From positions 1 to 52,559 of the IMG/VR virus record IMGVR_UViG_3300025828_000031: a DNA stretch of 52,559 bases; one strand, 5' to 3'. The notes beneath the pieces are model-generated. The model saw only the letters and a list, made by a program, of their open reading frames with translations, was not told the origin of the DNA and searched no databases. Source of the stretch: a virus. The position numbers and the translations under genes were made by a program. Below, one piece after another: positions 13,375 to 25,287 of the stretch (its first letter is position 1; each line of letters begins with the position of its first letter).

Positions 13375-13731
13375 TTATTTAGTCACACTTTTAGATACAA
13401 TTACCTTGCCTTCTAAAATTCTTTCTACATACGGATCACCTGTCGCCGAATCCGTGTACTGTAACTCCACATCATACACATACCTTCTCCTCGTTAGAGC
13501 ATCAGTTTGTGTGTTAGTAAGGATTATATCTACAATCCCATCAGTAGCAGGAGCAACTATCGCAGTTTCAAATGAAATTTTCTCAGAAGAATCTGCACCA
13601 TAACTACGGTTGATCTTTCCTCTGATTATAGACTGAGACAAATTCCTGTTAGTTCCGTCTGCATCAAGGAGTCGCAAACGCCATCTAGCATCTGCTCCTT
13701 GGTCTACATATAAATCTTCATACAATGCCAT
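13375..13731 (-). CDS. Small beta-sandwich-like virion protein, function unknown
   Basis: A 118-residue protein: MALYEDLYVDQGADARWRLR opens the chain, and alternating strands follow (SQSIIRGKINRSYG, DGIVDIILTNTQTDALT, RRRYVYDVELQYTD). It ends in EGKVIVSKSVTK. The opening pattern, a disordered short stretch then an acidic-aromatic strand with DQGAD, is like the N-terminal attachment domains of baseplate or fibre proteins, but I cannot name the family. A late promoter at 13768 lies 30 bases upstream. It sits between the 1535-residue repeat protein and the small genes leading to gp13, so a role in fibre or neck attachment is plausible. Confidence 0.6.
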   Translation of the reverse strand: MALYEDLYVDQGADARWRLRLLDADGTNRNLSQSIIRGKINRSYGADSSEKISFETAIVAPATDGIVDIILTNTQTDALTRRRYVYDVELQYTDSATGDPYVERILEGKVIVSKSVTK

Positions 13732-13760: not shown

Positions 13761-13768
13761 TATTTATA
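13761..13768 (-). promoter_or_regulatory. T4-type late promoter for the neck and packaging genes
   Basis: A perfect TATAAATA on the minus strand (13768 to 13761), overlapping the stop codon of the 1535-residue gene. The predicted transcript starts near 13755, about 24 bases before the next ATG. It could drive the run of small genes, gp13, gp14, gp15, gp16 and gp17. Confidence 0.72.
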
Positions 13769-16700
13769 CTGCTTCTATGGCAGATGGTTTGGTTCTAATA
13801 ACAATTGTTACTTGCTTCGGTTTAGTTATTCGGAACGATCTCACCAATGGTACTGCAGCAGATACTTCTCTTCTAGCACCAGTTCCTACAACATTTGATA
13901 CGCCAACTTCATCAGCAGTTAGATCTGCTTCTATCACAAATACAGTTCGTTTCGTAACAGCATTGACTGTAGATGGACCAGACCTTGGTATGGCAACACC
14001 ATTACTATCCGGAACACCATCTGCTACTTTAATTATTCTTTCCGCAACACCCGTTACAAGGCAATCTACCGTAGTAAGTGCATCGCCGCCTTGGTCATCG
14101 ATCTCACGTTCACCTACACCAGCGACTATCGACACACCAACTTCAGAGGCAGTCAAATCTGCTTCTACAGATACAATAACTCTTTCAGCAGAGCAGACTA
14201 CAGTAACATCTTGAGCAGCAACAGCGGTGCTAACAGAAACCACCTTCCTTTCAGCAACGCCAGAAACTTGTGAATCTTCTGAAGATAGAGTTACTACTGG
14301 TCTTATTATACGTTCAGCAACACCAGCAACAGTTGAAGGATCAGTGTTAACGTCACCATCTATCGCGCCTTCTACTTCTAGTTCTACAATACGCTCAGCA
14401 ACACCTGCTATCGTAGAACTTTGCGCAGCAGGATTAGGAACAACATCTACTACAGTTCTCTTCGCAGTACCTTCTACCAGAGAAGGAGTACACTCTAAAA
14501 TACCACGAGGTTTAATAATAACATTTGTGGTTGCGTTGACGGTGGATGCAGGTGCTTCTAATGTTACTGCTGATCTAATTTCTCTTTCTGCTACTCCACT
14601 GACATCAGAAGGTTGCGCAATAGGTGAGACAATCTTTTGTACATCTATAGTACCTGCCATATTCGGATGGTACTGACAATTGTAGTAAAGATTGTCCGGT
14701 GCGTTTAATGGAACATCAAATACTATTGTTCCGTTGTCTTCTCCGTTATTAGTTACACCATCATTATAAGCATTTTCTGTTCCAGTACCGATAGGGAAGG
14801 ATGTTCCTGGTACAGACTTTATCCAGAAAGGATGTCCTGGTGTACTAACTTTGATTATGTACTTGGAACCCTTATGGAATTCTAATGTTGGATTCTGTAC
14901 ACCATCAATCACCCATGCACTGTTCCCGCTTCGGGATACCATATGAGTGATTCTTTCTCCACTGCCTGTAACAATCCTCTCTGCTGATCCAGCAACGTCA
15001 GAAGGATCGTCAACTATCAGTGCCGATTGTTCAGTAATTACCTCACGCTCGGCATCGCCAACTACTACAGATAGACCAACTTCGGAAGCAGTTAGATTCG
15101 CATCCAATGCCACAATAGTTCTTTCTGCGACAGCATAAACAACATTATATTCTGTAGGTCGTATTGTTAATGAACCAGCATCAATAATCCTTTCGGCAAC
15201 ACCAGAAATTGTTACGTCACTAGCAGCAAGTGCTTGTGTAATATTATTTGTTTCAATCTCGCGTTCAGCAACACCAGCGACTCCAGATGCGCCAATCTCA
15301 GCAGCAGTTAGATTACCTTCGGCAACAACAACCTTACGTTCTGCGTTACCCACAACCGCTGATATACCAACTTCAGCAGCGGTTAGATTAGTATCTACTC
15401 CAGTTATAATTCTTTCAGCGACACCCGATACTACTACATTTTGCGCAGATAAAGTTACTGCTGATCTTATTTCGCGTTCAGCAATACCAGCAACTATATT
15501 ATTCGCAGTTGGTACTAGCGTTGCCGATGTTCTTATCTCACGTTCAGCAGCACCAGAAACAACCGCGTCTTGATCAACAACAGTAGTATCAACATCAACT
15601 ATGGTGCGCTCAGATAGACCAACAACCACTGCATCTTGAGCAGACAATTGACCTTGTGAATTTGATGTAATTTCTACTGTTGAAGTTATTACACAATCAT
15701 CAGCAACTATAGCAACATTACCAGCGAGCAACTCACGTTCAGCAGCGCCAGTGACGACTGAATTTTGAAGTTGATTTGAAAGTGCAGGTAATACAGTAAT
15801 CGTACCGCCCATACTACCATGGTATTGACAATTGTAGTAAAGGGTGCTTGGTGCATTATCCGGAACTACAAACGTAATCGTTCCTACATCATCTCCATTA
15901 TTAGTGACGCCATCATTGTATGCGCCACCAGTACCAGTGCCAGGAGAAGATTTAATCCAGAAAGGATGTCCAGATGCAGTTACAGAGAATATGTATGTAG
16001 ATCCTCTGTGGAATTCTAATGTTGGATTAGTTTGACCGTCGATCTTCCAACTAGCAGAACCATTGTTAGTTACAGTATGTACAACGGTCTCTGGGGTGAA
16101 CCTATGCCCAACTGTACCAGTACCAGTTATTTCTCTCTCAGCGACGCCCACTACGTCTGATTGGTCGTCCACCACCGCAGCGGCACTTTCTGTTACAATT
16201 GAACGTTCGCCATTACCAGCAACTACAGAAACACCGATCTCGGCAGCAGTCAAATCACCATCGAGTGCATTAGAGGTTCTTACTGCAACTCCAGCAATCG
16301 TTGAAGATTGAGCAGCAGGAGTTGCGTCAGTGTCTACTACTATTCGAGTAGCATTACCACCAACACCCCAACCGACAGCACCGAGGTGTCCGGAACCAGT
16401 TTTCTTAACTTCTCCCAGTCCAGTAACTGTGTTATTATTAGTAGGTTTAAGAGCACCGCCACTTTCTTGCGTAATAATGCGCTCAGCAGCACAAACTGTT
16501 GTTGACGACTGCGCTTGTAGTGCAGCGGATTGTGAAACTATCTTGTTCTCTGCTAAACCAGTTACTACGGAAGGTTGTGCTTGTATAGAACCAGACTCTG
16601 TAACTATTTCGCGTTCAGCAACGCCACTGACCGGACCTGTTATTACTTCAGATACTTGTAAAACAGTGCTACCAGCAGTGACTACCCGTTCAGCAAGACC

Positions 16701-18371
16701 AACGACAAGATTATTAGCAGAAGGTTGGAATTCAGCATCACCCAATTGATTACTGGTTATTTCAACTACAGCAGCAACGGTAGAACTATTTGTGCTCAGT
16801 GCCGCAGAAGTAATTCTGCCCACATTAGCTGTGGCAACAATTTCAGCATCATCGTCGTGGACAATTGCAGCAAAAGTGGTGTTGACTTGTCTCTCAGCAT
16901 CACCAGCAACATCAGTAAGAACTACTGGTCCATCGTGTAGATCGCCAGAACCAGTAATAACACGTTCAGCAACACCAACTGCTACATTATTGTCAGTTGG
17001 TTTAAATGCTGCTGCGCCTTCTTGTACTATGATACGTTTAGCGACACCAACGATTGTTGATGACTGTGCTTCTAAACTACCATCGCCAGTCTGTACGACT
17101 TCACGTTCAGAAATACCAGTAACGACAGATACACCGACTTCAGAGGCAGTAAGGTTTGCATCATCTGGTGTAATAATCCTTTCTGCTACACCAGTTACTA
17201 TAGATGCAGAAGATTGTTGTAATGCGCCAGAGGCATTCTTTTTCCTTACACCTTGACCAGTGACAACATTGTTGTCAGTTGGTTTAAACTGTGCAGCACC
17301 TTCTTGTACTATGATGCGTTCAGCAACCCCAACGGTTGTTGAAGACTGCGTTTGTAGTGCAGCAGATTGAGATACAATACTATTTTCTGCTAAACCTGTT
17401 ACAGAAGAACTTTGTGTTTGTGGGGTTGCGTCCACATCTACAATAATACGATTAGCAACACCAAATGCTGTCAATCCTTCTGCTTGTATAGCAGCTGAAC
17501 CAGTAATGATCCTTTCTGCAACTCCAGATACCACAGGCACAGAAGATTGCTGTAATACTCCTGTACCTGTTATAATATTTTCTGCTTCACCAGTTACTAC
17601 AGAAGATTGTGTTTGTAGGGCAGAACTGGTATTATAACCAATATTACCTGAACCTACAACTCCACCAATAGGTTGAGATTCTAAAGAACCGCTTGAAGTG
17701 ATAACTCTTTCAGCGACGCCAGATACTATAGATACAGAAGATTGCTGTAACGCATTACCACCCTGATCGTCGATCTCTCGCTCAGCAATACCTGTTACTA
17801 CAGAAGATTGAGCGGCAAGCGTTCCTGAAGCATTTATAGTTCTTTCGGCAACTCCAACTATAGTTGCATCTTGTGCTTGAACAGCACCGGATGCGTTACG
17901 TTGAGCATTTGAAGTACCGCTTACAGTAGAGGATTGCGCCTGAACAGAAGATAAAATATTGTTAGAGGTACGGGCACCTGCGCCAGATACAGAAGATTCG
18001 CCAATAGAAAGTGCACCAGAAGCATTGATAATTCTTTCGGCAACACCTGTAACTTGAGAAGGAGTATCTACTTCCGCTGCTGCAACAACAGTTACAACAG
18101 AACGTTCACCGTCACCAGCAACGTCTACAACAACAGAAGGACCGTCATGTAGATCTGCTTCTAATGCAATAACTGTACGTTTTGTGGTAGCAGAGGTGGT
18201 GGCATCTTGCGCTTGAACAGCACCAGAACCTTTTTTAGTTATCTCAACAGCAGCACTTACTGTAGCGTCTTGCGCTGTCAACTCAACGACGAGTCTATGC
18301 TCGCCGCCTACATATCCAGGAGCGTGATACGTATCGTCTACGTATGGGATAAACTGTGCTGATGATGCCAA
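13764..18371 (-). CDS. Giant repeat virion protein with two cupredoxin-like domains
   Basis: A 1535-residue protein made almost wholly of degenerate repeats of about 25-30 residues whose core is VVSGVAERIITGS-like, preceded by LQAQSS or LTASEVGVS. Two insertions interrupt the array, at about residues 754-862 and 1140-1245. Each has the layout of a small cupredoxin, with a possible type-1 copper set: H802, C848, H851, M854 in the first and H1180, C1232, H1235, M1238 in the second (His, then C-x2-H-x2-M as in amicyanin). The start is TTG at 18371, with AGAAGG seven bases upstream. The repeats suggest a long beta-structured fibre or decoration. Similar repeat proteins occur in marine T4-like phages as virion proteins; the exact role is unknown. 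Confidence 0.7.
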   Translation of the reverse strand: MASSAQFIPYVDDTYHAPGYVGGEHRLVVELTAQDATVSAAVEITKKGSGAVQAQDATTSATTKRTVIALEADLHDGPSVVVDVAGDGERSVVTVVAAAEVDTPSQVTGVAERIINASGALSIGESSVSGAGARTSNNILSSVQAQSSTVSGTSNAQRNASGAVQAQDATIVGVAERTINASGTLAAQSSVVTGIAEREIDDQGGNALQQSSVSIVSGVAERVITSSGSLESQPIGGVVGSGNIGYNTSSALQTQSSVVTGEAENIITGTGVLQQSSVPVVSGVAERIITGSAAIQAEGLTAFGVANRIIVDVDATPQTQSSSVTGLAENSIVSQSAALQTQSSTTVGVAERIIVQEGAAQFKPTDNNVVTGQGVRKKNASGALQQSSASIVTGVAERIITPDDANLTASEVGVSVVTGISEREVVQTGDGSLEAQSSTIVGVAKRIIVQEGAAAFKPTDNNVAVGVAERVITGSGDLHDGPVVLTDVAGDAERQVNTTFAAIVHDDDAEIVATANVGRITSAALSTNSSTVAAVVEITSNQLGDAEFQPSANNLVVGLAERVVTAGSTVLQVSEVITGPVSGVAEREIVTESGSIQAQPSVVTGLAENKIVSQSAALQAQSSTTVCAAERIITQESGGALKPTNNNTVTGLGEVKKTGSGHLGAVGWGVGGNATRIVVDTDATPAAQSSTIAGVAVRTSNALDGDLTAAEIGVSVVAGNGERSIVTESAAAVVDDQSDVVGVAEREITGTGTVGHRFTPETVVHTVTNNGSASWKIDGQTNPTLEFHRGSTYIFSVTASGHPFWIKSSPGTGTGGAYNDGVTNNGDDVGTITFVVPDNAPSTLYYNCQYHGSMGGTITVLPALSNQLQNSVVTGAAERELLAGNVAIVADDCVITSTVEITSNSQGQLSAQDAVVVGLSERTIVDVDTTVVDQDAVVSGAAEREIRTSATLVPTANNIVAGIAEREIRSAVTLSAQNVVVSGVAERIITGVDTNLTAAEVGISAVVGNAERKVVVAEGNLTAAEIGASGVAGVAEREIETNNITQALAASDVTISGVAERIIDAGSLTIRPTEYNVVYAVAERTIVALDANLTASEVGLSVVVGDAEREVITEQSALIVDDPSDVAGSAERIVTGSGERITHMVSRSGNSAWVIDGVQNPTLEFHKGSKYIIKVSTPGHPFWIKSVPGTSFPIGTGTENAYNDGVTNNGEDNGTIVFDVPLNAPDNLYYNCQYHPNMAGTIDVQKIVSPIAQPSDVSGVAEREIRSAVTLEAPASTVNATTNVIIKPRGILECTPSLVEGTAKRTVVDVVPNPAAQSSTIAGVAERIVELEVEGAIDGDVNTDPSTVAGVAERIIRPVVTLSSEDSQVSGVAERKVVSVSTAVAAQDVTVVCSAERVIVSVEADLTASEVGVSIVAGVGEREIDDQGGDALTTVDCLVTGVAERIIKVADGVPDSNGVAIPRSGPSTVNAVTKRTVFVIEADLTADEVGVSNVVGTGARREVSAAVPLVRSFRITKPKQVTIVIRTKPSAIEAV
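14640..14950 (-). other. Second cupredoxin-like domain (residues about 1140-1245)
   Basis: This segment of the 1535-residue protein contains NPTLEFHKGSKYIIKV, TPGHPFWIKS, a YNDGVTNNGEDNGTI loop and LYYNCQYHPNMAGTI. Candidate copper ligands are H1180, C1232, H1235 and M1238. It is closely similar to the first copy, so the two arose by duplication. Confidence 0.65.
15780..16110 (-). other. First cupredoxin-like domain (residues about 754-862)
   Basis: This segment contains NPTLEFHRGSTYIFSV, ASGHPFWIKS, AYNDGVTNNGDDVGTI and LYYNCQYHGSMGGTI. Candidate type-1 copper ligands are H802, C848, H851 and M854, with amicyanin-like spacing C-x2-H-x2-M. Confidence 0.65.
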
Positions 18372-18414: not shown

Positions 18415-19086
18415 TTAGGCAGTTTGAATTTCCTCAACTACGTGTTCTGCCATTCTTTTACCTGTTTCATCACTGTTAAAAACAAACGCAATTGTGCTGC
18501 GTAAACAATTAGTACGAGCAGAATGGTATACAATTTTATCATGCTCGTCATATGTACCGTAATACCCATACTTACATTGCCACCCCTCAACGTCTGGGAT
18601 GACAACATGTTCTTTAGTTATTGGGTCTATGTGTTCCCATTGACCGTCGCCTTTTTCAGACCAAGTAAAGATAATATTATATCCACCCGCATTAGCATTA
18701 TTATGCCAACCAATAAAACCACCAGGAGGATATACCATAGACAATGCTTTTCTATGCGCACCCAAGAACATACAAACTTCGTTTACTAGTTCTTCGCCGA
18801 TTTTACCTAACTCTACCTGACCATCAAGATCTTTGTAGCGGAATTGATCAGCTCTTACCTCAAATCCACGCGCTGCTTCAGGAAACCCAAAATGTTCTCG
18901 ACCTCTATGCATTATTTGGTTACAGTATTCCTGAGAACAATACCAGTCGGCATCTTCATCCGGATGTAAATTTGCCACTCTATTTAAATCTATAGATTTG
19001 ACAAAGTCAGCATATTCATCTAATAATTCAATAAATTCTGCATTGCGGATTACCGCAGTATTCATCGGTTTCTCATGAAAATTCAT
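18415..19086 (-). CDS. 2-oxoglutarate/Fe(II) oxygenase-like protein
   Basis: A 223-residue protein with the signature of the double-stranded beta-helix oxygenases: YPPGGFIGWHNN at 119-130, a middle strand GYNIIFTWSEKGDGQWEHID, then KIVYHSARTNCLRSTIAF. H128 and H188 would bind iron and R196, eight residues after the second His, would bind 2-oxoglutarate. The usual HxD is HxN here (N130), a form I associate with phage members of the family, so activity is plausible but not certain. Such enzymes hydroxylate proteins or nucleotides. It lies between the 1535-residue repeat protein and a hexad-repeat fibre, which suggests a virion protein substrate. A second in-frame ATG at codon 8 is an alternative start. 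Confidence 0.72.
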   Translation of the reverse strand: MNFHEKPMNTAVIRNAEFIELLDEYADFVKSIDLNRVANLHPDEDADWYCSQEYCNQIMHRGREHFGFPEAARGFEVRADQFRYKDLDGQVELGKIGEELVNEVCMFLGAHRKALSMVYPPGGFIGWHNNANAGGYNIIFTWSEKGDGQWEHIDPITKEHVVIPDVEGWQCKYGYYGTYDEHDKIVYHSARTNCLRSTIAFVFNSDETGKRMAEHVVEEIQTA

Positions 19087-19092
19087 AATGTA

Positions 19093-21603
19093 TTACTCTA
19101 CTCGCACGTATAATGTATAAGTTTCAATGGTTGCAGGAGTACTAGTTAGTGTTTCTCCAGTGTACTGACCTGTGTATTGGTTTGTATAGTTTCCTGCGAA
19201 ATTAGTTGAATATGATCTAACACCAGAAAAATTACGAGTGCCGACGAAAGTTTGCGCGACAGTGTAAGTTGATGCATAATTTCTAGATCCACCAAATCCT
19301 CGAATACCTAAGAAATTTCTGGTTCCCACAAAAGCAGTGCTGACGCTATATTGAGCAGCATAGTTTCTTGAACCAGCAAATCCTCTTACACCAGCATAGT
19401 TTCTGGTTCCTACAAAAGTTATTGCTACAAAACCCGCGAAAGCAGCGGAAAACTGTGATGAGAATGTTGCTGGTCTTGGTCCCGTATAGTTTGCTGGCGT
19501 GACTCCTGCGAATGCTTGCGATACAGTAAAAGTTCTTGCTCCCAAGAAATTCCTGTTACCAGTATAGTTCGCTGGGGTAACTCCTAGAAAGTTTCTGGTT
19601 CCCAAAAAGTTTCTAACGCCACCATAGTTCGCTGGGGTAACTCCTAGAAAGTTTCTTTCTCCCGCATAATTCGCAGGAGTGACTCCCGCAAATGCTATCG
19701 AAACACCAAAGGTTGCGTTACTGGCAAAGTTGGCATTAGAAGCAAATCCATAAGTCCCCAAGAAGTTTTGAGATACGCCAAAGTTGGCGGGGCGTACACC
19801 CAGATAGTTTACAGTTCTAGATCCCAGAAAAGTTCTTGGACCAACAAAGTATCTAACACCAGTATAGTTTCTGACACCACCAAATTGCCAAATCCTAACA
19901 CCACCATATGATCGCCAACCACCGTATCCTCTAGTACCCACATAAAAATATGTGTTGTATAATGGAGGAGAGAAGTTACCAGGACCTGAAAAATAGGCAA
20001 AGACAGCAAAGTTTCCTGGCATCGGACCATTCCAGTTTATTGGTCTAGCATATGCCGCATTTCCAGAAGAAAAGTTATAGTTGGCAGAAAAGTTTTGAGC
20101 GACATTGGACGCAAAATTTGCAGAACGAGTACCAAGGAAGTTTCTTACGCCAGCAAAGTTTCTACTGCCAGTAAAAGTACGAGGTCCAGTAAAAGTTCTT
20201 GGTCCAACAAAGTTTCTAACTCCAGTATAATTCGCAGGAGTCGTACCAAGGAAGTTTCTAGTTCCCGCATAATTCGCAGGAGTCGTACCAAGGAAGTTTG
20301 TAGAAATAGCGAAGTTTCTTTCACCAGCATAATTCGCAGGAGTGACTCCTCCAAATGCTATCGAAACTGCAAAATTTCTTTCACCAACAAAACCTCGGAC
20401 TCCAGTATAGTTCGCTGGGGTAACTCCTAAGAAGTTAGCATCTCGAGTACCAACGAAATTATTAATCCTTTGACCTGTATAATTAGCAGGACGAGTTCCT
20501 GCGAAAGATTCATTCGCATTAGAAAAAGTTTGCGAGACACTATACGTTGCCGCATAATTTCTAGATCCACCAAAAGCACGAACACCAGTAAAGGAAAGGT
20601 TAGGATCAGCGAAGTTGGTTTCGACACTATATGTCGACGTATAATTTCTAGATCCGCCAAACCCCCTTACGCCAAGGAATCCAAGGTTAGGATCAGCGAA
20701 GTTGGTAGAGTAACTCCTAACACCAGCATATTGAACCTGAGAATAACCAGTGTACTGCCCTGAATATTGCACGTTATTTGTGGTGAAACGAGTATCTACT
20801 GCTGTACCACGTGCTTCCCAAGTTCCTGTAGCAGTTGGCGCTCCTTGTCCTGAAGTGCGAAGTTCATATGTTCCTACATCTCCATGCCTAAAATATTTTC
20901 CTGCTATTTGTCCAAAGGTAAGCGACATCTCTGCATCAGTCATCGCTTCTAAACCGCCATCGTATGACGCTAAAGGATATGTCCCATAATTTGAACGCCT
21001 GACGTGCATCGCATTACATTTCGCAGGAGCAGTAATAGTCTGTCTCTGCCAAATACTGTACTGAGTTACGTTGCCATTTGTAGTTGTATCAGTAAAAACA
21101 TTAGAAAGAGTGGCAGACCAGTCTCCGCTTGGAGCAGAGGCAGCAAGTCTCTGCGATCCAGGATACTCATTTGACTGTATAATTGACATGAGCGATTGTC
21201 CGATACCAACCATAGCATCAGAATCCATATCAAATATATTGCCATCCGATTCATAAACAGGACGACGAAACAATCCCGTACTCTGGTCGTCCAGTTTTAC
21301 TGCTCCGGAAGCACTATCACCCTGTAATTGATAGAGAGTAGTTGTGGTCGATCCAATAGAAAGCGAAGATCCTGGGTGTGTTCCTACTGCTTCATTGTAG
21401 AAAGTATCAGTGTACGAACCAATGGCAGAATCTCTATGCGCGATTGTAATAGATGATTTAATAGCAGTGGGACCCAGAGTCCCTCTTGAGGCAAAACGCA
21501 ATCCCGCCTGATACGCGAGATAGTTCTCATTAGTAGAAGTCGCCCTTTGCAAATTGCCAGACGCATCTTTTTGAATAATTGGTAACTTGTAAGGTTTCGC
21601 CAT
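19093..21603 (-). CDS. Hexad-repeat tail fibre, paralogue A
   Basis: An 836-residue protein. The first 290 residues form a non-repetitive N-terminal part (an opening like that of fibre proteins that bind the baseplate, with THPGSSLSIGSTTTTLYQL and GTWEARGTAVDTRF). The rest is built of about forty short repeats of the form R-x-[FY]-x-G-x, for example RNFLGTRNFLGV and TPANYTGVRNFVGPRTF. A distinct Pro/Gly/Asn/aromatic segment breaks the array in the middle (about residues 500-560). The C-terminus, YTLYVRVE, is shared with the paralogue at 22855-25287. A late promoter lies 33 bases upstream. It is followed by the oxygenase-like gene. It is probably a host-binding fibre; no known fold is evident. 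Confidence 0.72.
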   Translation of the reverse strand: MAKPYKLPIIQKDASGNLQRATSTNENYLAYQAGLRFASRGTLGPTAIKSSITIAHRDSAIGSYTDTFYNEAVGTHPGSSLSIGSTTTTLYQLQGDSASGAVKLDDQSTGLFRRPVYESDGNIFDMDSDAMVGIGQSLMSIIQSNEYPGSQRLAASAPSGDWSATLSNVFTDTTTNGNVTQYSIWQRQTITAPAKCNAMHVRRSNYGTYPLASYDGGLEAMTDAEMSLTFGQIAGKYFRHGDVGTYELRTSGQGAPTATGTWEARGTAVDTRFTTNNVQYSGQYTGYSQVQYAGVRSYSTNFADPNLGFLGVRGFGGSRNYTSTYSVETNFADPNLSFTGVRAFGGSRNYAATYSVSQTFSNANESFAGTRPANYTGQRINNFVGTRDANFLGVTPANYTGVRGFVGERNFAVSIAFGGVTPANYAGERNFAISTNFLGTTPANYAGTRNFLGTTPANYTGVRNFVGPRTFTGPRTFTGSRNFAGVRNFLGTRSANFASNVAQNFSANYNFSSGNAAYARPINWNGPMPGNFAVFAYFSGPGNFSPPLYNTYFYVGTRGYGGWRSYGGVRIWQFGGVRNYTGVRYFVGPRTFLGSRTVNYLGVRPANFGVSQNFLGTYGFASNANFASNATFGVSIAFAGVTPANYAGERNFLGVTPANYGGVRNFLGTRNFLGVTPANYTGNRNFLGARTFTVSQAFAGVTPANYTGPRPATFSSQFSAAFAGFVAITFVGTRNYAGVRGFAGSRNYAAQYSVSTAFVGTRNFLGIRGFGGSRNYASTYTVAQTFVGTRNFSGVRSYSTNFAGNYTNQYTGQYTGETLTSTPATIETYTLYVRVE
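19130..20770 (-). repeat. Hexad repeats R-x-[FY]-x-G-x in fibre A
   Basis: The DNA of this part contains many near-identical blocks of 20-60 bases, for example those encoding GVTPANYTG (near 19500, 19570, 19630, 19680, 20350 and 20420) and RGFGGSRNY (near 19300 and 20650). Such blocks invite recombination and copy-number change. Confidence 0.8.
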
Positions 21604-21635
21604 GACTATCTGCTATGCCGATAAATTTATTATTC

Positions 21636-21643
21636 TATTTATA
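21636..21643 (-). promoter_or_regulatory. T4-type late promoter for fibre A
   Basis: A perfect TATAAATA on the minus strand (21643 to 21636), in the 46-base gap between the glycosyltransferase-like gene and fibre A. The leader would be about 27 bases long. It gives fibre A, the oxygenase-like gene and possibly the 1535-residue protein their own transcript. Confidence 0.78.
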
Positions 21644-21649
21644 CGTTTG

Positions 21650-22396
21650 CTATGACTGATAAACTTCTTTATCAGCAACAAAAGATCTATGATACAAGAT
21701 AACATCATCTGGCATAGGTTCCTTCCTGTGTTGTAACGACCAATAGTTCCAACGATCGTTTTCTTTAAATTCGCCAATCTTCAGGTCTTTGTACTTTTCT
21801 TCTTTGTTTACTAACCACCATAGAGTAAATTGATCCCAATGCTTTAGTCTTCGGGGATGCGTTTCTTGATCCCAGTCACCGTTTTCGTCTGTCGGCCACC
21901 ATTCGTCATTCATTTGCTTGTCGTATAGTTCAAACCAATCTTTCATGAACGGTAGCATTTCTTTTGTATAAAGACAAACTGCGCCGCAAAGAACAAATGT
22001 TCCTCCTGGCCAATGCGACTCTACAAATATGTCATGATTTTTTTCTTCTAGTATATTAAAAACCATGTCGTTGTCGCCCAACTCATCAAATACAGTAGCG
22101 ATGTCTTCGTGTAAACATTCCATATCAGCATCAATATAGAAGGTCTTATCGAAAGGACTTTGTGACATACCCCAAAGTTTAGCACGATAATGATCATCAC
22201 AATATACTACATGATCTGCTACTTCTTCACGACCATCACAAAACCGTTCTTCGACAACGAAGCATGTTTTTGCTTCAGGATAGTAATCTTTTATTTGTTC
22301 TAAAAGATTCACGCCCCAAGCATAGTACCGATAATCTTTTGAGGCAACTACTAAGAAACCATTATTTTCCGCTTTCATTGGCAACAGACAACCCAA
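21650..22396 (-). CDS. Glycosyltransferase-like protein (GT-A fold, DxD motif)
   Basis: A 248-residue protein with the plan of a nucleotide-sugar transferase: an N-terminal strand GFLVVASKDYRYYAWGVNLL, the stretch RAKLWGMSQSPFDKTFYID, and a DxD metal site (D89-A-D91 in YIDADMECL). A second conserved region lies around the HWDQFTLWWLVNKEEKY segment. The frame begins at a TTG at 22396, nested in the upstream gene; an ATG at 22378 (codon 7) is an alternative, and neither has an ideal ribosome site. It sits between two hexad-repeat fibre genes, so glycosylation of fibre protein is the simplest guess; lipopolysaccharide or DNA modification cannot be excluded. The acceptor is unknown. Confidence 0.72.
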   Translation of the reverse strand: MGCLLPMKAENNGFLVVASKDYRYYAWGVNLLEQIKDYYPEAKTCFVVEERFCDGREEVADHVVYCDDHYRAKLWGMSQSPFDKTFYIDADMECLHEDIATVFDELGDNDMVFNILEEKNHDIFVESHWPGGTFVLCGAVCLYTKEMLPFMKDWFELYDKQMNDEWWPTDENGDWDQETHPRRLKHWDQFTLWWLVNKEEKYKDLKIGEFKENDRWNYWSLQHRKEPMPDDVILYHRSFVADKEVYQS

Positions 22397-22832
22397 GTTC
22401 TTCCATCATAATTAGTTGCGCATACAAATTAAGTTCAACCACATTTTTAGAGCGACGAAGTTTACTCTTGAGAGTTTTATTGCTGGTGTTTTTAATCTGA
22501 TCTATTTCTAAAATTTTAATTTTTGCATCAAACAAAACTTCAAGGTCTTTTGCTTGTTGTTCCGCTTTCCTTCTTTGCTCTTCAACTTCTTTTTCTTTTG
22601 ACTTTCTTTCTCTGCGCTCAGCAGTATTAGCGTCGATCTTTTCTTCGCCAATTTCTTCCATGAGTTCTTTAAAGTCAGGATTTTCGTTACCGTTCACATC
22701 AAACTTGCGAACTGTAACAACTTGTGTGATTTCTCGACCACTCTCATCTGTGATGCTAAGGATTGCTTCCGCCATCTCTTTTTCATCATTATGCCAAAAA
22801 GCATTATCCAACCACTTTCGCTCTGCCATCAT
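22362..22832 (-). CDS. Charged coiled-coil protein, function unknown
   Basis: A 156-residue protein. The N-terminal 60 residues look folded (KWLDNAFWHNDEKEMAEAIL, SITDESGREITQVVTVRKFD). They are followed by a highly charged coiled coil (RRERKSKEKEVEEQRRKAEQ and beyond) and a C-terminal helical end. It overlaps the glycosyltransferase-like gene by 35 bases and follows fibre B closely. Its place between fibre genes and its size recall fibre-assembly chaperones, but I see no signature. AGGAG stands before two adjacent ATG codons; the second, at 22829, has the better spacing. Confidence 0.6.
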   Translation of the reverse strand: MMAERKWLDNAFWHNDEKEMAEAILSITDESGREITQVVTVRKFDVNGNENPDFKELMEEIGEEKIDANTAERRERKSKEKEVEEQRRKAEQQAKDLEVLFDAKIKILEIDQIKNTSNKTLKSKLRRSKNVVELNLYAQLIMMEELGLSVANESGK

Positions 22833-22854: not shown

Positions 22855-25287
22855 TTAAGTTGCTGACACTCTCACATATAATGTATATGTTCTAATTGTT
22901 CCTGGTGTAGCGACAACTGTTTGTCCAGTATATTGAGCACTGTATTGAGAAGTGTACGTGCTAGTATATTGTCCAGTGTATTGTCCACTATAGTATCCAG
23001 TATATAGTACTGCCCTTGTACCTGCAAATGTTATTGTAGCAGGACCAATGAAATTTCCCGAGTAAGGTCTACTTCCACCAAAGGTTTGCGGCGAAGATCT
23101 TACTCCAACAAAGTCATTAGAGAATGCTCTTACACCAGTAAAGGTTCTATCACTTACAAACTGTAGATTGTTGGATTGTCCGAGGTGCAGGAATCCTGTA
23201 TTATTGAGATAATATCTGACTCCTGCAAATTGACCCGCATAATTGCCCGAGTATGCTCTTGGCCCTGCAAATGTCCTTTGACCAACAAAACTTTGTCCTA
23301 TAATAAAGTGACCAGTGTTTGCGTCAATTATTGGACCCGTGCCCACAGGACGGACAAAGTTCTGAGCAGTTGCCCAATATCGAACACCAGTAAACGGAAA
23401 GTTTCTGGTTCCTACAAAAGTTATTGCTGCCCAACCTAGGAAGGGTTCGGGTGTATAATCGGTTGTCCATGCTCCAAAAGACAAATAGTTAAACTGTGGG
23501 AAGATAGGATTGACCGCAGTGAAGTTCTGGGCGGGTCCGGCGAAATATACTGGACTTGACTCAAATCCTCTGATTCCTGTATAGTTTCCTGTGAAATTGC
23601 TGGAATATTGCCTCTGCCCACTAAAATACCTAAACCCTGTATAAGTACGGATACCAGTGTAATTGCTCCCACGCGTGCCTGCCCAAGCGACGTTTGCCAC
23701 TGGGTTACCTACAGGGAAAGATGCTCCATTAGCGAGAAATTGTCTAGTCCCAGTGTACCAAATTCCGAAAGGTCTACTGCCCGTATAAGATTCTTGTAAA
23801 AACTGTCCAGGAACAACACCGCTAAATGCAATGGGGTTAGTGCCCCACTGCATAGGAGCGATGGGGACACCGCCTTGGTACGCACCCGCGAATGATCGTT
23901 GTCCAGCATATTGAGTAGCGAAATATCTTTCCCCTGTGTAAAATCTGGTACCAATGAATTCTCTCACACCAGAAAAATATCTTAAACCTGTAAAATACCT
24001 AACTCCTGTGTATGGTCGAGGTCCTGTATAATTAACTTGTCGAGATCCAAGGAATTGTTGGGGTCTTGGCCCAGTAAATGTGTTGGTGTACGGAAGATCT
24101 CTAGTACCACTAAAATATCTTAACCCTGTAAAATCTCTTGCTCCAGTAAAAGTGCGATCTGAAGCAAACGATCCAGTGTAGTATCTTACACCACTAAAGT
24201 TTCCAGTGAATTGTCCAGACCATGCTCTCGATCCAACATAATACCTTGACCCCACAAAGGTTCGTTGTCCCACGAACTGTTGAGTTTGCGGGCGCACACC
24301 AACAAAGGTATTAGTGAATGACCTTATGCCAACATATTGGTTAGTGTAATTTCTAACGCCAGCATAGTTGACCTGCCTAATGCCAACAAAGTTTTGAAAA
24401 AGTGTAGAATATCTTAGGTTAGTATAAGTGCCTAGATACTGACCAGTATACTGCCTAGCATATTGTGGACTGGTATACAACACCGTAGCATACTGAACGT
24501 TCTGTACAGTATTTTTAGTATCAAGTGCTGTACCTCTTGCTTCCCAAGTTCCAGATGCAGTGGGTGCACCGTCAGAGTCAGATCTAAGTTGATATTCCCC
24601 TACTCCATTAAGGTAATATCCCTGTTGGATCATACCGTTACCGATTTCACCAACTTCGGAAGCAGTCATTTCTTGGTAATCTTGATCACCAATTTTTTTG
24701 ATAGGGTAATATGCTTCCGGATCTACGTTTACAGTTTCTTTTCTCCAAATATGATAATTTGTAGAACCGTTTACTTTTGTGTCCGTAAAGACAGCATCAA
24801 TCCATTTAACATATTCAGATGTAGGTTGTGTTGCGCTTAAACGAAAAGAACCAACACCTTCCGTGGATACTGCTATATCGTTAACTCTTAATGCTAATGC
24901 GTTATAACTCGCAGAATCCATTTCATATAAAGCACCGTCTGAATCACAAACCACAAGTTTCGGAACTGCTCCATTAAAAGGAACTTGAGTTACAGCGTCG
25001 GTCATCTGGCGCAACGTAGTGGTAGTAGATCCACTACTAATAGAAGTTCCTGGGTGAGTACCGATCGGAGAAGTGTAAAAGGTGTCTCTGTAAACACCTA
25101 TATCAGAGTCATTAGCAGTATTGGTAAGAGTTAGGGATCCGCCATATCTTGCACCAACAGAATCGTATGCACCAACAAGACCCAGTCCACCTTCGTTCGC
25201 GAAGAGTGCTTCCTCCGCTGTGGTTAACTGTTTTAGGTCTCCACTAGAGTTTAGAATCTTTAGCGGTATTGTAGAAAACGCTGACAT
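22855..25287 (-). CDS. Hexad-repeat tail fibre, paralogue B
   Basis: An 810-residue paralogue of the protein encoded at 19093-21603. The N-terminal parts align (GTHPGTSISSGSTTTTLRQM, VGEYQLRSDSDGAPTASGTW, EARGTALDTKNTVQNVQY), as do the ends (TYTLYVRV). The repeat part again uses R-x-[FY]-x-G-x, here with more Tyr and Gln (FTGVRYFTGLRYFSGVREF, GQYTGQYTSTYTSQYSAQYT). It has its own central break around PMQWGTNPIAFSGVVPGQF. The copies have diverged clearly, so they may bind different receptors or form a hetero-fibre. An AGGAT ribosome site precedes the ATG. It lies directly after the 990-residue fibre. Confidence 0.72.
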   Translation of the reverse strand: MSAFSTIPLKILNSSGDLKQLTTAEEALFANEGGLGLVGAYDSVGARYGGSLTLTNTANDSDIGVYRDTFYTSPIGTHPGTSISSGSTTTTLRQMTDAVTQVPFNGAVPKLVVCDSDGALYEMDSASYNALALRVNDIAVSTEGVGSFRLSATQPTSEYVKWIDAVFTDTKVNGSTNYHIWRKETVNVDPEAYYPIKKIGDQDYQEMTASEVGEIGNGMIQQGYYLNGVGEYQLRSDSDGAPTASGTWEARGTALDTKNTVQNVQYATVLYTSPQYARQYTGQYLGTYTNLRYSTLFQNFVGIRQVNYAGVRNYTNQYVGIRSFTNTFVGVRPQTQQFVGQRTFVGSRYYVGSRAWSGQFTGNFSGVRYYTGSFASDRTFTGARDFTGLRYFSGTRDLPYTNTFTGPRPQQFLGSRQVNYTGPRPYTGVRYFTGLRYFSGVREFIGTRFYTGERYFATQYAGQRSFAGAYQGGVPIAPMQWGTNPIAFSGVVPGQFLQESYTGSRPFGIWYTGTRQFLANGASFPVGNPVANVAWAGTRGSNYTGIRTYTGFRYFSGQRQYSSNFTGNYTGIRGFESSPVYFAGPAQNFTAVNPIFPQFNYLSFGAWTTDYTPEPFLGWAAITFVGTRNFPFTGVRYWATAQNFVRPVGTGPIIDANTGHFIIGQSFVGQRTFAGPRAYSGNYAGQFAGVRYYLNNTGFLHLGQSNNLQFVSDRTFTGVRAFSNDFVGVRSSPQTFGGSRPYSGNFIGPATITFAGTRAVLYTGYYSGQYTGQYTSTYTSQYSAQYTGQTVVATPGTIRTYTLYVRVSAT
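22900..24500 (-). repeat. Hexad repeats R-x-[FY]-x-G-x in fibre B
   Basis: Coding repeats with the same period of about 18 bases as in fibre A but a different consensus (FTGVRYF, FVGQRTF, YTGQYTG). Short near-identical blocks such as those encoding YTGVRYFTG or QYTGQYT recur across the region. Confidence 0.75.

Follow-up and report, generated by a model that had tools for sequence, protein, structure and literature searches.

Gene layout and the paired fibres

The window analysed here, the whole of a 52.6 kb virus record with most of its genes on the minus strand, comes from a marine T4-like myovirus. The five genes of interest, all present as minus-strand open reading frames (ORFs) where the original prediction had put them, run head to tail in the order fibre B, SM, GT, fibre A, OX. 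They are listed in order of transcription, with a promoter-like sequence and one gene further downstream:

22855..25287, minus strand: fibre B, an 810 aa repeat fibre ending ...TIRTYTLYVRVSAT (ORF, hexad enrichment, C-terminal motif)
22362..22832, minus strand: SM, a 156 aa charged coiled-coil protein (ORF), putative chaperone or adaptor of the module described below
21650..22378, minus strand: GT, a 242 aa GT-A glycosyltransferase, glycogenin/GT8-like (predicted structure, DxD motif)
21636..21643, minus strand: late-promoter-like box TATAAATA, about 33 nt upstream of fibre A
19093..21603, minus strand: fibre A, an 836 aa repeat fibre ending ...TIETYTLYVRVE (ORF, homology to fibre B)
18415..19086, minus strand: OX, a 223 aa 2-oxoglutarate (2OG)-oxygenase-like, prolyl-hydroxylase-like protein with a double-stranded beta-helix (predicted structure, motif invariance)
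13375..13731, minus strand: a 118 aa gene of the "L-shaped tail fiber protein assembly" family (phrog_1084, E 1e-21; phrog_3304, E 6e-13)

The GT start is taken as the ATG at 22378 (the listed ORF, with a TTG start, extends to 22396). GT and the end of SM share 17 nt, and 6 nt separate the fibre A stop from the OX start. A gene of about 118 aa is the usual downstream neighbour of the module in many loci. Downstream of OX in the window (13764-18371, minus strand) is a 1535 aa repeat protein, parts of which match the baseplate wedge/tail fibre connector family phrog_677; in it a segment resembling HPFWIKS...YYNCQYHGSMGGTI, cupredoxin-like by eye, occurs twice.

The genes had been assigned to a late structural block, rightly, since those surrounding them are T4-like structural genes (portal, protease, scaffold, sheath, terminase, neck, baseplate, and fibre connector, by PHROGs). 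The late-promoter octamer is also present: each of the eight ATAAATA sites on the minus strand has the sequence TATAAATA, and most are just upstream of structural genes. The total ATAAATA count in the window is not above chance.

Fibres A and B are homologous over almost their full length (31.8% identity, E 9e-78), and both end in the segment TYTLYVRV. Both are built around [FY]xGxR, with 40 occurrences in fibre A where shuffled sequences average 1.0 (maximum 4) and 35 in fibre B where they average 0.9 (maximum 4), well outside what chance would produce. The "strict intervals" first attributed to these repeats were somewhat too strongly worded: the enrichment stands, but the spacing is mixed, with 6 residues commonest and 8, 10, 14, and 16 interspersed. 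N-x-S/T sequons, considered as a distinctive feature of the fibres, were rejected as such, being only slightly in excess of shuffles (16 vs. 13.4; 11 vs. 8.0). A contig with enzymes identical to those of the window (L004 and L083) has a fibre A ORF of 828 rather than 836 aa, which suggests either variation in repeat number or another called start.

A conserved module and its fibre partner

Relatives were taken from viral contigs by OX and by GT, giving 44 non-redundant GT loci (95% identity). SM is directly upstream of GT in 42 of these, mostly overlapping it; OX begins no more than about 60 nt from the GT stop in 39, often with an ATGA overlap, and follows one inserted fibre in three more. 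The SM-GT and GT-OX overlaps suggest coupled translation. This order, with its overlaps, holds at GT identities down to about 28%, which supports the proposal that the two enzymes belong together; on the strength of the synteny, a chance grouping was rejected as an explanation of the gene set. SM-GT-OX is a conserved, overlapping three-gene module of uncultured marine T4-like phages. Pairwise distances are correlated among the three genes (r 0.69 to 0.76), although shared descent of the whole locus could account for part of both the linkage and this correlation. SM, which matched no known family, aligns with a mean column identity of 53%.

A local rearrangement has placed fibre A after GT and before OX, an arrangement found only in the clade of the window (the window, L004-L009, L012, and L096); in phages outside it both fibres are upstream of the module, or one fibre is shown. 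In the divergent loci L127 and L262, GT is about 4 kb away, with SM and OX still together. Among isolate-type records, relatives occur in phage C48C1 alone: tblastn of isolate phage records with two GT queries found none beyond it. A genome scan found one module intact (L261, a MAG contig of 142 kb), one split (that of L262), and, in Rhodobacteraceae, weak GT relatives that are mostly from Ruegeria chromosomes.

Beyond the three genes, the loci almost always share the end of a fibre. Upstream of SM, the ORF varies in its repeat middle but is conserved at its end, (I)ETYTLYVRx; among 41 loci in which this ORF is readable, 36 have a TYTLYVR-type end, four the variant LKLWLR, and one neither (counted by reading). 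At the one clear exception, L054, the module stands behind a 1488 aa protein of IDNVNT-like repeats without the C-terminal motif. At L187 and L195, 27 extra residues separate ETYTLYVR from the stop, and the module still follows.

The association was also approached from the fibre side, by scanning with a DNA pattern for ETYTLYVR alone, blind to the enzymes; the figures cover the matches listed. At least 117 ORFs carry the motif, which is no more than 3 residues from the stop in 115 of those listed. Among listed matches with at least 5.5 kb of downstream sequence, module genes follow in 42 of 43, and the contig of the exception also encodes GT. Sixteen listed ORFs have at least 1.5 kb downstream with no module gene in view; GT is encoded elsewhere on the contig for 11, and the other five contigs, which lack it, each end 2.4 to 4.5 kb after the fibre. 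The matches listed thus contain no counterexample of a motif fibre without the module. (The pooled figure, 74 of 77, includes motif-seeded loci and is not independent.) A tblastn search of isolate phages with a 34-residue C-terminal consensus gave no match, missing C48C1 as well.

That the enzymes go with repeat fibres was part of the original prediction, and this holds for a broad [YF]xG class with a shared C-terminus; the exact hexad is not required, since partner fibres in other clades have tetrad or other [YF]xG repeats. The occurrence of the enzymes in genomes lacking repeat fibres, which would have told against the association, was not found for SM-GT-OX, the upstream ORF of L054 being repetitive, with the motif absent.

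Predicted folds and active sites of GT and OX

Neither OX nor GT of the window matches Pfam, PHROGs, or NCBIfam, and PDB sequence-profile searches with OX, GT, and SM gave chance-level matches only. AlphaFold models were built from alignments of 59 (OX) and 44 (GT) sequences, and together with Foldseek and VIA comparisons they bear out both proposed folds.

The GT model (AF2; pLDDT 93, pTM 0.90) has a GT-A fold. Foldseek matched it to glycogenin (E 1.6e-8) and also to the lipo-oligosaccharide galactosyltransferase LgtC; in VIA the best structural match is human glycogenin-1 (Z 17.2, 3.6 A over 194 residues), with further matches to the Skp1 galactosyltransferase (6mw5; 14.8) and the PBCV-1 capsid glycosyltransferase (14.5). 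Both Asp residues of the DxD metal/nucleotide-sugar motif are present in 158 of 158 aligned rows, and a C-terminal His is near-invariant. GT is classed here as GT-A and GT8-like but not as a GT8 member, because the curated GT8 profile does not recognise it: just three of 45 relatives touch PF01501 (best E 8.5e-4), and the GT of the window has no Pfam match.

The OX model (AF2; pLDDT 95, pTM 0.90) has a double-stranded beta-helix core, as in Fe(II)/2OG oxygenases. Foldseek matches include P. putida P4H (E 1.6e-5) and PHD2, and VIA matches are PHD2 (Z 11.0, 3.4 A over 153 residues), the Dictyostelium PHD (6t8m; Z 10.6), and the PBCV-1 collagen prolyl hydroxylase (9.6). Residues Y119, H128, N130, H188, and R196 are invariant in every aligned row having a residue there; by spacing, we take their counterparts to be PHD2 Y303, H313, D315, H374, and R383. 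R196 (217 rows, the other four gapped) is 8 residues past H188 and opens strand 196-203, where it corresponds to the eighth-strand Arg that binds the 2OG carboxylate.

The canonical oxygenase site is altered in OX. Instead of an HxD/E...H metal triad OX has HxN, with H128 and H188 invariant: because its spacing corresponds to that of PHD2, an Asn is placed where the metal-binding Asp normally sits. All 220 rows with a residue at this third metal-ligand position, which was located from motif spacing and the sequence pattern, have Asn (N130) there; they comprise about 135 distinct sequences. An hhalign comparison of the OX profile with E. coli YbiX was unsuccessful, so that the equivalence of HxN and HxD rests on the fold match and motif spacing. 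In the accessible text of the papers searched, no 2OG enzyme with a natural HxN site is described.

This raises one of the two main alternatives to a fibre-modifying enzyme pair, the other being modification of the host surface, discussed below. OX may not be an oxygenase at all: with HxN it might bind metal and 2OG weakly or not at all, and act in folding or assembly of the fibre, leaving GT alone to modify it. The uniform replacement of the HxD carboxylate by Asn would fit such a role, as would the pairing of SM and OX without GT in two divergent loci. However, both His and the Arg and Tyr at 2OG/Fe positions are invariant as well, which suggests a working site rather than decay, and 2OG enzymes without the carboxylate can be active: AspH has HxG, and FIH keeps some activity when its Asp is changed to Gly (PMC10947486). 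A non-catalytic OX seems on balance rather unlikely.

Possible substrates and comparison with known systems

The fibre, SM, GT, and OX probably constitute one late-expressed maturation unit for a host-recognition fibre. The linkage of the genes, the folds, the conserved catalytic motifs, and the consistent partnership with one class of fibre are observations; from them we infer the fibre as substrate, activity of both enzymes, what SM does, and whatever sequence the reactions may follow. SM, as chaperone or adaptor, would hold the fibre, perhaps through the conserved C-terminal (I)ETYTLYVRx segment; GT would move a sugar from a nucleotide donor onto it; and OX would oxidise fibre residues, either to provide a hydroxyl for GT or as a modification in its own right. 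The likely acceptors would be repeats with many Tyr, Thr, Asn, and Ser residues. It is conceivable, as a more tentative suggestion, that a single fibre-modification machine operates across marine T4-like phages, in which an HxN-iron oxygenase and a glycogenin-like transferase serve diverse repeats by way of an adaptor that reads a C-terminal tag.

The second main alternative is that GT, and perhaps OX, alters a surface glycan of the host during infection, for example to block superinfection, in a region that collects genes of this kind. In related pelagimyophages, which are likewise marine and T4-like, glycosyltransferases stand among tail fibres in a host-recognition cluster, with GT8 the commonest family, and have been read as modifiers of the host O-chain (PMC7029224); this published reading is still the leading rival. 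The match of the GT fold to LgtC and the weak cellular relatives in Ruegeria chromosomes could be taken the same way. However, the pelagimyophage island is described as variable and non-syntenic, its enzymes as host-directed (PMC7029224), while the module described here is syntenic and fibre-linked: its order is fixed, SM is overlapped, and one fibre C-terminus is tracked across very divergent phages. A protein-hydroxylase-like OX, moreover, has no evident role in changing an O-chain. A host-directed function is judged unlikely.

The main caution against assuming a fibre substrate comes from the distribution of OX, whose paralogues away from fibres show the family to be broader. Many marine T4-like phages have one between gp3 and uvsY, also with HxN (L024-L082; L001, 17016-17669); CDS0017 of C48C1 is in this position. 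A third C48C1 copy (L270, 3631-4305; OQ984149.1, 40130-40804) is beside a NifU-like Fe-S gene. Genes for a UDP-glucose dehydrogenase and a nucleotide-sugar epimerase are found near it, possibly for supply of sugar donors. Each of 18 large records has one to three OX copies. A target of OX and GT other than the fibre, either DNA or a different virion protein, with the fibre no more than a neighbour, would suit these paralogues but appears quite improbable, as the fibre-adjacent copy is the module copy, also in single-OX records, and a search with the fibre motif only leads back to the module.

Returning to the maturation unit, one parallel is Skp1, on which, in Dictyostelium and Toxoplasma, a prolyl hydroxylase and a glycogenin-like transferase act on one protein. 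Both the Dictyostelium PHD (6t8m) and the Skp1 galactosyltransferase (6mw5) are among the structural matches above; the likeness is structural, and Skp1 is a cytosolic eukaryotic protein with a single acceptor proline. Glycogenin itself, the best match for GT and with a conserved DxD in common, is only 13 to 16% identical, and GT lacks a curated Pfam match.

Collagen offers a looser analogy. Mimivirus L230 and PLOD/LH3 are examples of collagen-type hydroxylation and glycosylation. As far as the accessible portions of the sources describe it, collagen modification in giant viruses and animals uses a 2OG-oxygenase and a glycosyltransferase for a repetitive fibrous protein (PMC9546862, PMC6082870), much as a 2OG-oxygenase-like and a glycosyltransferase gene stand beside one here. 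The phage enzymes are separate genes, however, whereas those acting on collagen are combined in one multifunctional protein; OX is prolyl-hydroxylase-like with HxN, not HxD; and the phage fibres contain little Lys and, in many cases, little Pro. The residues abundant in partner fibres across clades are Thr, Gly, Tyr, Ser, and Asn. Over 120 motif fibres the median is 1.2% for Lys and 2.0% for Pro, with a minimum of 0 for both (the window fibres have about 4% Pro), which argues against Pro or Lys as a general, collagen-type acceptor. With Pro and Lys scarce in many partner fibres, and HxN in OX, the analogy can only be loose.

Phage virion glycosylation is a kind of modification already known, and the reading preferred here would be a variant of it. 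Mycobacteriophages (Che8 gp110, Corndog gp38; Freeman 2023) carry glycans at the C-termini of capsid and tail-tube proteins, according to the accessible parts of these reports (PMC12619734, PMC12363180). There too a phage-encoded glycosyltransferase is involved, decorating structural proteins; the targets are capsid and tail tube, and those parts mention no oxygenase partner, while the module described here is presumed to act on a repeat tail fibre.

Because GT, OX, and SM travel together, almost always beside a repeat-built fibre, the results suggest that many uncultured marine T4-like phages chemically decorate the fibre with which they find their hosts. Receptor-binding fibres are generally interpreted by their sequence alone; if those of many such phages are decorated, host range, stability, and adsorption would not be readable in that way, and at least some of the glycosyltransferases in such islands would not be modifiers of the host surface. 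The invariant HxN would add a natural variant to the iron-ligand sets of 2OG oxygenases, and the conserved C-terminal motif provides a simple marker for finding such phages.
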